NCBI GenBank assembly: GCA_945831805.1
Contig: CAMADY010000002.1
Span: 1-64,000, forward strand
Source of the DNA: an uncultured Prevotellaceae bacterium
GTDB lineage: Bacteria; Bacteroidota; Bacteroidia; Bacteroidales; Bacteroidaceae
Reading direction: 5' to 3'
DNA length: 64,000 nucleotides
Positions 40,116-44,985 of this stretch are shown here, piece after piece. The translations under genes and the position numbers were made by a program. The notes under the pieces are model-generated. The model did not search any database. It had not been told where the DNA came from and worked only from the letters and a program-made list of their open reading frames with translations. How positions within the stretch are numbered: the stretch's first letter is position 1; every line of letters begins with the position of its first letter.

Positions 40116-41453
40116 ATGTACAAAAGAAAGATAGAAAACAAACTCCAGGCATGGTTGGACGATCCGTCACACAAGCCTATCGTAGTGAAAGGTGTTCGTC
40201 AGTGTGGCAAGACAAGCAGTGTAGTTGATTTTGCCCGCAAACACTTCAAGTATGTGGTGTATCTTGACTTCCGTGAGCATCCGGATTATAAGAAGTTCTT
40301 CACTCCCAATCTGGAGGTGGACTCAATCATCATGCGTATCACTGCATCAATGCCAAGTGCAGAGATTGAACCTGGAGAAACATGCTTTGTGTTCGATGAG
40401 ATTCAGGATTGTCCTCATGCAAGAGGCTCCCTCAAGTATTTCCACCTTGATGGCAGATACGAGGTGATGTGTACAGGTTCACTGCTTGGTGTCAATGGAT
40501 ATAAGACAAAGGAGGAAGAACAAGAAGAAAAGGAAGCTTCAATACCTGTTGGTTTCGAAGACATCATCAATATGTATCCTATGGACTTTGAAGAATGGCT
40601 GTGGGCTAATGGAATCAAAGATCTGCATATTAATTATCTGAAGAACTGCCTGTCAGAAGAAACTTCTGTTGATGAAGCTTTGCATAATCGTTTCCGCAAT
40701 CTGCTACATCAGTATGTCGTAGTAGGAGGTATGCCAGAAGCCGTATCTACATTTATTGAGACAAAGCTGATTGGCAAGGTGCTTGCTGTGCAGAAGCGTA
40801 TCATTGAGGAATACAAAGCAGACATGCTTCAGTATGCTCCAGCTACAGACAAACCAAGAATCCGCGAATGCTTTGAATCTATCCCTGCTCAGCTAGCGCG
40901 CGAATACAAGAAGTTTACCTATACCGTGGTTCGTCCAGGAGCACGTGGACGAGACTATGTCGGTAGTCTGCAGTGGATTGAGGATGCAGGCATTATCCGT
41001 AGGTGTTACAATACGGAGATTACCGAACTGCCCCTTGACGGCAATAGAATACAAGGTGAGTTCAAAGTCTATATGGCAGACATCGGGTTGCTCGTCGCCA
41101 TGCTTGAAGAGGGAACTCAGTCAAGCATCCTGGCTGGCGACCTGCTTAGCTACAAAGGTGCCATCTTTGAAAACCTCGTTGCAGATATATTGGGCAAAAT
41201 GGAACGTAAACTGTATTACTATCACAAAGACGGAGGTATAGAAATAGATTTCCTTATACGTTACAGGGGGAAGTGTGTGCCAGTGGAATGCAAAGCCACG
41301 ACAGGCAATGCTAAATCCCTGACTACTGTACTAAGGAATCAAGACAAGTATCATGTTGATATTGCGCTAAAGCTGGGTGATTACAATATCGGCAGAAAGG
41401 GCAATCTCCTCACGCTGCCAATGTACATGGCATTTCTGCTAACTGAAGTGTAG
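40116..41453 (+). CDS. AAA ATPase with DUF4143-type C-terminal domain
   Basis: VVKGVRQCGKTSSVVDFARKHF, CFVFDEIQDCPHARGSLKYF; C-terminal IEIDFLIRYRGKCVPVECK nuclease-like motif. Confidence 0.87.
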   Translation: MYKRKIENKLQAWLDDPSHKPIVVKGVRQCGKTSSVVDFARKHFKYVVYLDFREHPDYKKFFTPNLEVDSIIMRITASMPSAEIEPGETCFVFDEIQDCPHARGSLKYFHLDGRYEVMCTGSLLGVNGYKTKEEEQEEKEASIPVGFEDIINMYPMDFEEWLWANGIKDLHINYLKNCLSEETSVDEALHNRFRNLLHQYVVVGGMPEAVSTFIETKLIGKVLAVQKRIIEEYKADMLQYAPATDKPRIRECFESIPAQLAREYKKFTYTVVRPGARGRDYVGSLQWIEDAGIIRRCYNTEITELPLDGNRIQGEFKVYMADIGLLVAMLEEGTQSSILAGDLLSYKGAIFENLVADILGKMERKLYYYHKDGGIEIDFLIRYRGKCVPVECKATTGNAKSLTTVLRNQDKYHVDIALKLGDYNIGRKGNLLTLPMYMAFLLTEV

Positions 41454-41654
41454 AATATACACCTACATCCCCAAATTTAAAACAACGTTAAAATCGGATA
41501 GTTTTACTTATAAAGGAAAGAAGAAAATGTAAATATCATTAGAAAATTCTTCTTTTTCAACGCAATTGCATTGCTTTTTAGATAAAATTTGCTAAATAAT
41601 AATTGTTTTGGTGCATAAATTTCTTTCAATTAAAGAAAATTGTGTATTTTTGCA

Positions 41655-41966
41655 GTGTCCTTTCGAATCTGAGGCTCCTGAATGGAGATAAGGAGGAATT
41701 TGGACACTTACATAATAGATTAGCGATTACGCGCTTGGTTCTTGACACCTTGAAACTTCGCAACTTTCGAAACTGTCAGAGAAGAAGCAACGTAGATGCT
41801 CATGGGTATGTTATATCCGTGCATGCGATTCGCCTGTCTTACATTTTTGGTGAATCTGATGCCGTATGCATACAGCGTGGGTTTCGATGTTGCTCGTTTT
41901 GACAGTAAGGGCAATGCGAAGGCCTCAAGGTGTGGAACGGGTAACGTATAGCTCCACGCTTTTTTG
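41655..41966 (+). ncRNA. Candidate structured noncoding RNA (5' hairpin plus ~200-nt rod plus terminator)
   Basis: Nine nested complementary segments between 41738 and 41938; TATTTTTGC promoter at 41645; GTGGA/TCCAC followed by TTTTTT at 41932-41965. Confidence 0.7.
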
Positions 41967-41997: not shown

Positions 41998-44985
41998 ATG
42001 AATTTTCATAAGATGGAATCAAAACAAAATTTGGTTATGCCTTCCCACAATGAGTCTATCGAAGAAAAAAGGATTCGGTATGAAGCAAAGAAAAAAGCAG
42101 AAAGACTACAACAGATCAGCAAGATTCTTGAAGGACATGAATATGCACTTCCTGCAAAGTATTCTGAAGATCAATACCAATCAAAAGTGATTCAACTGCA
42201 AAGTGGGCATCATTTGGTTTTGGCAGGTGCAGGTTGTGGCAAAACAGATGTGCTTGCTGAACGTATTATGTATGCTATAAACCATGGCGTAGATACGCAA
42301 GATATGCTTTGCCTTACTTTTACAAACAGGGCAGCACGCAACATGCGCGACAGGATAGAAATAAGGACAGGGCTTGGAGATATGGTATCTTTGTTTGTCG
42401 GCAACATACACCGCTTTTGCTCTACATTCCTATATGAGCAAGGTGTTATCTCGCAGACTTCAAACATACTTGATGAGATTGATTCCGAGTCATTGATTAA
42501 GGACTTCATGAGTCAAATAGGTTTCGTCGAACTGACAGAGAATGATAATGGCATAGAGTGCAATTGGGTGACCTGCTTCAAGGTTCAGCATCTCGTTTAT
42601 CAACTTCGCCAAAAGCATAACAAAGAGATTCTCCTCAATACGGATTCTCTGAAACCTTATATAAAACATGTAGCAGATAAGTATCCTTCACCAAGAGGAC
42701 ACTGGTATGATTATGTCGACTTGTATGATAACATAGAACAAGAAAGCTACAGCAGTGAGAGGATAAGGATTTTCATTGAAGAATGCAAAAAGGCGAAAAG
42801 AGAAAGAAGGAATATACCAAAACCACCACTGGATGAACTTGTCAAAGGCATCTTGAAGGTTGCAAAACTATACGAGGAATACAAGCGAGACAATGAACTT
42901 CTTGATTTTGATGATCTGCTGCTAAGAGGATACGACTATCTATTTGAAAACAACAAGACCATCAAGAAGTATTCATGGATTCAGGTTGATGAGGTTCAAG
43001 ACTTAAACCGCCTTCAGCTGAAGATTATTGACTTGTTGACAGATACGTCACGCTCAAATGTCGTAGTGTATCTTGGCGATGAGCAACAAGCCATCTATTC
43101 TTTCATGGGAGCAAAGTTGGACATAATGAATTATCTGAAAGACGAAAAATGTAAAGGAGAGTCCATAAGATTGTTCATTAATTACCGTTCACCTAAATAC
43201 CTACTTGACGTATTTAATCACTTCGCAAATTACGAATTAGATACAGATGTGAGCCTACTTCCTCAAGCTCATAACAAAGAAATGGACGACCATGGAGGTA
43301 GACAATTCTTAATAAGTAATTATGCGAATGAAGAAATAGCAAATGTTGTCGCAAAGGCATTAGAACTTTATTCTGAGACAGAGAGGACTGCAATACTTGT
43401 ACCTTACAACAAAATCGCAAACGATATAAGTGAGAAGTTAGGTAAGATAAAGCACTTCAAGATTTCAGGACAGGACGTGTTCTCTACTCGTGAAGTACAG
43501 ACACTCCTTGCACATTTCAACGTTGTGAACTTTGAGAGGAACTTCCTGGCATGGACACGACTGATGACAAACATCGGCGTATTCAATACACCAAAAGCAT
43601 CTCGTGACTTCTATCGCGAGATGGATAAGTGTTTTCTTACACCTGAAGATTTCCTGAAATATGATGGACAGAGTTACATCGCAAGCTTTGTTCGTGATTA
43701 CGAAGGAGAATTTGTCATATTCGACACCGAAACAACAGGACTGGACATATATAACGATGATATTGTGCAGATAGCAGCGGTAAAGCTGAACAACGGATTA
43801 ATTGTTGACAAATGCAACATTATCATCCAAACAGACAAAGAGATCCCGGAGTTCCTTGGAGATATAGAGAATCCGCTGACAAAAGAATATGCCGAAAGAA
43901 AGCAAAAGTATGAGAAGGAAGGTCTTGACAAATATGAAACAGAGGAAGGCATAAAGAAATACTTTGTCAACAGAGCCGAAGGTCTCAAGGATTTCCTTGA
44001 TTTTGCAGAAGGTTGTCCTATCTTAGGTCACAATGTAGAATACGACTATCATATCTTGGATTATAATCTAAGACGCGATTGCAACATACACAATATAGGA
44101 GAACTGTTCCCGACTTACTATGACACGCTGAAGATAATGCGCATCGTAGAGCCAGGCTTGATGTCCTACAAATTAAAGAATCTGCTTGAAAGACTGCATC
44201 TTGAAGGTGACAATTCTCATCTTGCAGATGCAGATATTCTTGCAACGAAATCTGTTGCAGATTATGCAAGACGCAAGTCTTTGTCGGTCATAAAGGAACA
44301 AGGAAAGTTCATTGATAGATACAGCCATCAGATAAACACTCTTGTCAAGAGGTACCAGAAGTATTATCTGCACACACAAGAGATGCTGTATGACAAACAG
44401 AACGACTTAAGTGTTCCTGCACTGGTTAGCGAGATGGAATATCTATACAATGGATTGCTGGCAGACGGTATCATAGAACCTATCGAGAAGTATCAGCATA
44501 TTAAAGAATTCCTTGCACTTGATGCATTGCAGAACGATATGCAGTCTTCTCTTCATGAGTTATTGAATAAGCATATCATGGAGATAAACACCTTCAAAGA
44601 AGCAGACCTAAGTGACAGTTCTACGATAAAAGAGAAACTGTTTGTGTCAACTGTCCATAAAGCAAAAGGACTGGAGTTCGAGAATGTCATTGTGGTTGGC
44701 GTAAACGACGGAACATATCCTTTCTTTCCTAATATAAACAAGAACGACAAAGATGCTATAAAGGAAGATGCACGAAAGTTATACGTTGCTATCTCAAGAG
44801 CAAAAAAACGCCTGTATATTTCTTATGCAAACAGAAGGCGAGGAATCAGCGCACGAGGAAAATCTTACGATATGGAGATAAAAAAATCATGTTTCCTTAA
44901 GCATGTCTCAATTTTCTTTGGAACAATAAATATACGGATTGAAATATCAGAAAATATCATTAATAAGTTCAAATATGGAAAATAA
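41998..44985 (+). CDS. UvrD/Rep-like SF1 helicase with embedded DEDDh (DnaQ-like) 3'-5' exonuclease domain
   Basis: LVLAGAGCGKTDVLAERI, WIQVDEVQDLN, FVIFDTETTGLDIYNDDIVQIAAVKL, HLADADILAT, STVHKAKGLEFENVIVVG, LYVAISRAKKRLYISY. Confidence 0.9.
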   Translation: MNFHKMESKQNLVMPSHNESIEEKRIRYEAKKKAERLQQISKILEGHEYALPAKYSEDQYQSKVIQLQSGHHLVLAGAGCGKTDVLAERIMYAINHGVDTQDMLCLTFTNRAARNMRDRIEIRTGLGDMVSLFVGNIHRFCSTFLYEQGVISQTSNILDEIDSESLIKDFMSQIGFVELTENDNGIECNWVTCFKVQHLVYQLRQKHNKEILLNTDSLKPYIKHVADKYPSPRGHWYDYVDLYDNIEQESYSSERIRIFIEECKKAKRERRNIPKPPLDELVKGILKVAKLYEEYKRDNELLDFDDLLLRGYDYLFENNKTIKKYSWIQVDEVQDLNRLQLKIIDLLTDTSRSNVVVYLGDEQQAIYSFMGAKLDIMNYLKDEKCKGESIRLFINYRSPKYLLDVFNHFANYELDTDVSLLPQAHNKEMDDHGGRQFLISNYANEEIANVVAKALELYSETERTAILVPYNKIANDISEKLGKIKHFKISGQDVFSTREVQTLLAHFNVVNFERNFLAWTRLMTNIGVFNTPKASRDFYREMDKCFLTPEDFLKYDGQSYIASFVRDYEGEFVIFDTETTGLDIYNDDIVQIAAVKLNNGLIVDKCNIIIQTDKEIPEFLGDIENPLTKEYAERKQKYEKEGLDKYETEEGIKKYFVNRAEGLKDFLDFAEGCPILGHNVEYDYHILDYNLRRDCNIHNIGELFPTYYDTLKIMRIVEPGLMSYKLKNLLERLHLEGDNSHLADADILATKSVADYARRKSLSVIKEQGKFIDRYSHQINTLVKRYQKYYLHTQEMLYDKQNDLSVPALVSEMEYLYNGLLADGIIEPIEKYQHIKEFLALDALQNDMQSSLHELLNKHIMEINTFKEADLSDSSTIKEKLFVSTVHKAKGLEFENVIVVGVNDGTYPFFPNINKNDKDAIKEDARKLYVAISRAKKRLYISYANRRRGISARGKSYDMEIKKSCFLKHVSIFFGTINIRIEISENIINKFKYGK

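Follow-up and report, generated by a model that had tools for sequence, protein, structure and literature searches.

The stretch at positions 41655-41966 of the window, by which we mean the whole 64,000-nucleotide piece of Prevotellaceae DNA analysed here, is very likely one copy of an uncatalogued Bacteroidales family of cis-acting leader RNAs. Our preferred reading, which we hold at a probability of roughly 0.6, is that the region serves the downstream gene as its 5' untranslated leader and that this Bacteroidales-specific family acts by conditional transcription termination. Rfam lacks a large switch-like RNA that most sampled genomes of an abundant gut genus carry, as do many other Bacteroidales, and by its position this RNA appears to control genes that have in common only that they are accessory. 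The leader suggests that surface proteins and phage defence in gut bacteria are subject to a regulatory layer so far unrecognised, and this can be tested directly in the culturable carriers Segatella copri, Segatella hominis and Paraprevotella clara.

A multicopy structured RNA missing from Rfam

The first-pass annotation of this DNA had read a rod-shaped RNA from nested complementary segments, and in the minimum free energy (MFE) structure of 41655-41966 these segments do pair where it had placed them, nested as described. The predicted fold reaches -115.4 kcal/mol, compared with -85.2 ± 4.7 kcal/mol in dinucleotide shuffles (z = -6.4; 0 of 100 shuffles equalled it), and the reverse strand of the same region folds more weakly (z = -3.7).

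A blastn search of relatives matched parts of the region in 13 of 60 genomes, commonly several times per genome, and from these matches we drew a first alignment of 22 copies. RNAalifold found 36 consensus pairs in it, and at 19 of these both partners have changed. A covariance model (R1; 20 homologues, 217 positions), built on the core alone with the 5' hairpins P1 and P2 left out, detected the element at 1-11 copies each in 85 of the 120 genus genomes, and at five places in the window's own, incomplete genome. Across the Bacteroidales the element was found in 61 of 296 genomes and 37 of 178 genera, while phylum-wide only 3 of 300 genomes matched, one being the window's own genome and the other two weak. 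Named carriers include Segatella copri, S. hominis, Palleniella muris, Paraprevotella clara, Bacteroides sp., Muribaculaceae and Alistipes, and three Phocaeicola/Bacteroides plasmids also bear the element. A phage origin was set aside, as IMG/VR gave no exact-pattern match; phage collections yielded two partial matches, both in unannotated human-faecal records. The window's own genome also holds a lone 5' fragment of the element, apparently a decayed copy (L002; G000:C23:31887-31977).

The suggestion that this could be a novel structured RNA has held up against Rfam 15. The whole window gave no cmscan match at gathering thresholds, and nothing credible was returned for the region at E ≤ 10 or for seven homologous loci at E ≤ 3, the relaxed threshold producing just chance matches to CRISPR-repeat and miRNA families. 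Literature searches found no description of this leader RNA.

The homologous core of the element spans 41740-41959 (Table 1). The separate 5' hairpin noted earlier (GTGTCC/GGACAC at 41655/41702, enclosing CTCCT/AGGAG) is present and is likewise part of the family, with a sequence that varies between copies; in a 5' alignment of 101 copies most share the P1 internal loop ACGCCGA / GGnnGGGTGGGGA, of which the window copy has a divergent version. P2 forms a stem of at least 4 bp within the 34 nt before the model start and is absent in at most 3 of 152 copies, its paired bases varying. In one natural deletion (L040:7844-7925) V1, CTTCGC and the terminator are kept, and the whole apical rod and V2 are gone.

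Table 1. Features of the window copy and its surroundings, with window coordinates and the basis of each assignment
Feature	Coordinates	Strand	Basis
Predicted promoter -7 element TATTTTTG	41645..41652	+	Bacteroidetes TAnnTTTG consensus
P1 5' hairpin, GTGTCC/GGACAC enclosing CTCCT/AGGAG	41655..41707	+	MFE fold; 5' alignment of 101 copies
P2 hairpin AGCG-ATTACG-CGCT	41722..41735	+	Stem kept across copies
Strand a TCTTGAC, alternative partner of a'	41740..41746	+	a:a' 85.5% standard pairs; double changes 7/7
V1 left arm ACACCTTGA, pairs 41925-41933	41745..41753	+	98.7% standard pairs; double changes 7/9; z 24.5 against permuted partners
CTTCGCA, pairs 41915-41921	41756..41762	+	99.1% paired in 81 copies
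V2 left arm CTGTCA, pairs 41900-41905	41773..41778	+	Double changes in 3/3 tested pairs; z 11.6
Strand a' GTCAGAG, alternative partner of a	41775..41781	+	Alternative-helix pairing counts
AGCAAC, pairs GTTGCT 41889-41894 in rod form	41786..41791	+	97% paired, few changes
Apical rod part	41799..41881	+	Length varies between copies; missing in natural deletion L040
GCGTGGG, distal partner of terminator 3' arm CCACGC	41875..41881	+	97% paired
Strand c GTTGCTCGTTT, nearly invariant; partner a' side (rod) or c' (terminator form)	41889..41899	+	
TGCGAAG and V1 right arm TCAAGGTGT	41915..41933	+	Rod pairing counts
Strand c' GAACGGGTAAC	41935..41945	+	Alternative-helix pairing counts
Predicted intrinsic terminator, GTGGA 41932-41936 / TCCAC 41953-41957, U-tract 41960-41965	41932..41965	+	Covarying stem, z 6.8
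Spacer to helicase start codon	41966..42012	+	Window copy without the motif of other copies
UvrD-type helicase gene with inserted DnaQ-like exonuclease domain	41998..44985, start maybe 42013	+	Pfam UvrD-helicase, UvrD_C, RNase_T

Position of the element relative to genes

We scored the nearest downstream ORF of at least 100 aa for 152 distinct copies and found it co-directional with the element in 132 and opposite in 4, while the orientation of the upstream ORF was mixed (87:55). The distance from the model end to the downstream ORF clusters at 70-95 nt, with about 30 others, whose reading frames stay open across the leader edge, scored at 0-2 nt, their true start not being resolved by the script. 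In the plasmid copies from Phocaeicola and Bacteroides, PGAP-annotated genes begin ~75-90 nt past the element end.

The promoter-like TATTTTTGC proposed at 41645 fits the Bacteroidetes -7 consensus TAnnTTTG and recurs at the same distance in other copies: exact matches to TAnnTTTG are concentrated 90-99 nt before the model start (61 over 151 copies), with no comparable peak elsewhere, and such a match occurs 80-150 nt upstream of it in 101 of 152 copies. At the other end of the element, the proposed GTGGA/TCCAC-T6 terminator is conserved among homologues with a covarying stem, and at least 5 of the first 8 nt after the last stem are T in 146 of 150 copies. On these features, the structure before the gene is a predicted intrinsic terminator.

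Most copies carry a further motif beyond the U-tract, ~40-55 nt past the model end, whose sequence complements the terminator 3' arm, CAGACUCCCG with CGGGAGUCUG being one such pair. Pairing between motif and arm scores ≥16 in 63% of copies, compared with 18% when spacers are swapped, and the two change together. The window copy is atypical in that this motif is missing and an A+T-rich hairpin surrounds the start codon instead.

Taken together, the orientation bias, the spacing, the upstream promoter, the U-tract and the spacer covariation lead us to conclude that the element is very likely a cis-acting 5' leader, the promoter part of this assignment resting on consensus matches. The same observations bear on the alternative that each copy is a stand-alone small RNA (sRNA) with its own promoter and terminator, acting in trans in a 6S-like or base-pairing manner and lying next to a gene by chance or for reasons of space. 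Promoter and terminator do flank the element, and B. thetaiotaomicron is rich in intergenic sRNAs (PMC7366714), but a stand-alone RNA fits poorly with the 132:4 orientation, the tight spacing and the lack of any TAnnTTTG excess in the spacer between RNA and gene (consensus search, 151 copies). Moreover, given the spacer covariation, element and downstream stretch belong to one RNA, and we consider a stand-alone sRNA highly unlikely. An attenuator working through a leader peptide was also rejected: no conserved short ORF was found among the 152 copies. In 70 of them the 45 nt around P2 contain no ATG, and the others differ in frame.

Paired columns and two exclusive folds

Returning to the leader itself, we measured pairing in a set of 81 copies (A4), whose figures lean towards the rod because its copies were gathered by exact-pattern search and by a model built around that fold. 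In this set 95.3% of the 2604 cells in the rod helices are standard pairs, compared with 30-43% for slid partners, and 339 cells are doubly changed, compared with 103 in shuffles, both controls leaving the relatedness of copies in. V1 is paired in 98.7% of cells though its sequence is almost free. V1, V2 and CTTCGC were first seen in the unbiased set of 22 copies, in which the CTTCGCA helix already has compensatory changes. Among paired columns, G-U outnumbers A-C by 822 cells to 140, and the plus-strand RNA is therefore under selection.

The alternative helices a:a', c:c' and GCGUGGG:CCCACGC are paired almost as completely in A4 (94.5%, compared with 34-53% for slid partners), and they are incompatible with the whole rod. 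Pairing of c:c' reaches 96-99%, and its changes are nearly all between G-U and A-U or between G-C and G-U, on the c' side; strand c hardly varies and c' varies mostly by G-U-compatible changes, as expected of a strand with two partners. The 5' arm of the short terminator stem overlaps the end of V1, and the antiterminator contact a:c' is weakly supported, with a z of 2.1. The paired columns thus support two exclusive predicted folds, the rod on one side and, on the other, a pair of local hairpins with an intrinsic terminator at the end. The rod read in the first-pass annotation is in this respect real and supported by homologues, but it is just one of two mutually exclusive forms. Kissing hairpins, with a:a', c:c' and the rod formed simultaneously, were set aside on steric reasoning.

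In stepwise folding of the window copy, the local 5' hairpin forms first, and the rod with V1 and GUUC:GAAC appears once 41940 is reached. Constrained folding places the short-stem terminator form a median of 5.5 kcal/mol above the MFE and the full c:c' helix with the distal stem a median of 14 kcal/mol above it, and on these modelled energies the short terminator stem would be the more plausible competitor of the rod.

Genes behind the leader

We compared 118 downstream proteins with Pfam and found BspA-type leucine-rich repeats in 7-8, AbiH in 3 and NusG/UpxY in 2; other recurrent families are outer-membrane barrels and restriction and helicase domains, and most of the proteins belong to no recurrent Pfam family. 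The downstream genes are unrelated accessory genes, among them BspA-type surface, outer-membrane, restriction/abortive-infection and UpxY antiterminator genes. Homologues of the window helicase are present in 50 of 120 genomes, and the leader RNA preceded none of the 19 such loci examined. The RNA is therefore not tied to the adjacent nuclease, as had been suggested for the window copy. The best PADLOC matches of the window helicase (41998-44985) are RT-associated helicase and GajB models, and an AAA_14/DUF4143 ATPase gene at 40116-41453, adjoining leader and helicase, has a strong PADLOC match to the candidate defence family PDC-S01.

Within the genus, an upxY-type gene directly follows the leader at no fewer than 13 loci. 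UpxY as a general partner is ruled out by copy-rich genomes in which it was not detected: no UpxY match at E ≤ 1e-5 was found in the window genome, G004, G069, G076 and others, all with copies of the leader. At L263 a second copy lies on the opposite strand ~600 nt before the first, upstream of an upxY-type gene.

Comparison of related loci indicates that the leader is a modular unit, the same predicted leader preceding different genes in related genomes. L094 and L151 are 96% identical over 6.4 kb of upstream flank and leader and have no homology from the U-tract on, a break that could also reflect an assembly error at a repeated element. In the trio L033, L061 and L152 the upstream gene is common and the genes right after the leader differ, with L033 and L061 converging again at a common downstream gene, which argues that the gene-swap pattern is real. 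At other related loci leader and gene are common and the surroundings differ, and L104 and L171 have the leader alone in common, from -105 to +70. In both L094 (L291)/L151 and L033 (L293)/L061 (L292)/L152, homology stops at the leader 3' end or shortly beyond it and another gene follows, so that the leader marks a point of gene turnover.

A further alternative is a mobile or recombination element acting as DNA (MITE, BIME or attC-like), in which inverted arms mimic RNA structure. Copies are dispersed, homology between loci often ends at the leader edges with the downstream genes swapped, and hairpin 2 nearly matches the reverse complement of hairpin 1. Such an element is nevertheless very improbable given the excess of G-U over A-C in paired columns, which points to RNA, the strict orientation to the downstream gene and the conserved promoter and U-tract; neither terminal repeats nor a transposase were noticed in the copies.

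Proposed mechanism

Because transcription within the upxY leaders of B. fragilis ends early unless UpxY acts, regulated termination is the natural reading of the leader, and we consider transcription attenuation its probable mechanism. Transcription would start at the TAnnTTTG promoter, and P1 and P2 would form, followed by the local hairpin a:a'. As the 3' half emerges, the RNA would take one of the two exclusive folds. In the off fold the 3' half would close on itself (c:c', with GCGUGGG:CCCACGC or the short GUGGGA:UCCCAC) beside the U-tract, and RNA polymerase would stop. In the on fold the 5' half would capture the 3' half as a long rod (V1, CUUCGCA, V2 and a':c), the end of V1 taking the first bases of the terminator 5' arm and a:c' being able to take the rest, with read-through into the gene. 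In the read-through RNA the spacer motif would pair with the terminator 3' arm, now free, perhaps maintaining the on state. Candidate signals are a small molecule, a protein or a NusG-type antiterminator. We infer three points: use of the folds as a switch, the identity of the on fold, and the absence of another promoter for the gene.

The spacer motif lies downstream of the terminator, and thus outside the first termination decision, so translation or stability control is also conceivable. The leader might then act post-transcriptionally, its structure and spacer pairing governing mRNA stability or the start of translation, with the T-rich stretch as a loop and no working terminator. Bacteroidetes seldom rely on Shine-Dalgarno pairing, so accessibility of the start region matters there, and the motif, 25-35 nt before the start codon, covaries with the 3' arm across the T stretch, a pairing open to read-through RNA only. 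Against this, the T-run found in nearly all copies (146 of 150) right after a G+C-rich stem is the signature of an intrinsic terminator and would be needless for a loop. We regard post-transcriptional action as unlikely and keep conditional termination as our reading of the leader.

More tentatively, the leader may be a shared module through which one global signal or factor gates surface, restriction and abortive-infection genes, with newcomers recombining in behind the terminator. If this is true, horizontally moving genes across the Bacteroidales join one regulon.

Comparison with known systems

Most leader families described so far either belong to a single pathway or respond to a global signal. 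The element resembles riboswitches and attenuators in its two exclusive predicted folds, intrinsic terminator, U-tract and leader position, but its downstream genes have no functional coherence, no leader peptide is conserved, its decision helices span ~220 nt and it is a candidate without a known ligand. The likeness to 6S RNA raised in the first-pass annotation is confined to the long rod with internal loops; the element is multicopy, a leader bound to a co-directional downstream gene, and RF00013 matched neither the region (E ≤ 10) nor the genome, a test that is weak alone as its control matches include no named Bacteroides. Bacteroides possesses a separate, validated 6S RNA (PMC7366714).

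A metagenome survey predicted 3161 structured RNA candidates (PMC8040213). The cis-acting candidates named in its text are 38-106 nt long and precede specific genes, which sets the present family apart as far as that text goes, and some of the survey's candidates could overlap it.

The UpxY proteins of B. fragilis keep transcription from stopping prematurely in the 5' leaders that precede upxY (review PMC7819879). Here too the RNA lies directly before upxY-type genes (at least 13 loci), a likeness drawn from the published description rather than from leader sequences; most copies, however, precede non-capsule genes, and several copy-rich genomes have no detectable UpxY. Lastly, LoaP and put-type antitermination leaders are likewise 5' structured RNAs upstream of accessory operons, although the RNA described here is far larger and includes its own predicted terminator; by analogy with those leaders, P1, near the promoter, could serve as a recruitment site.
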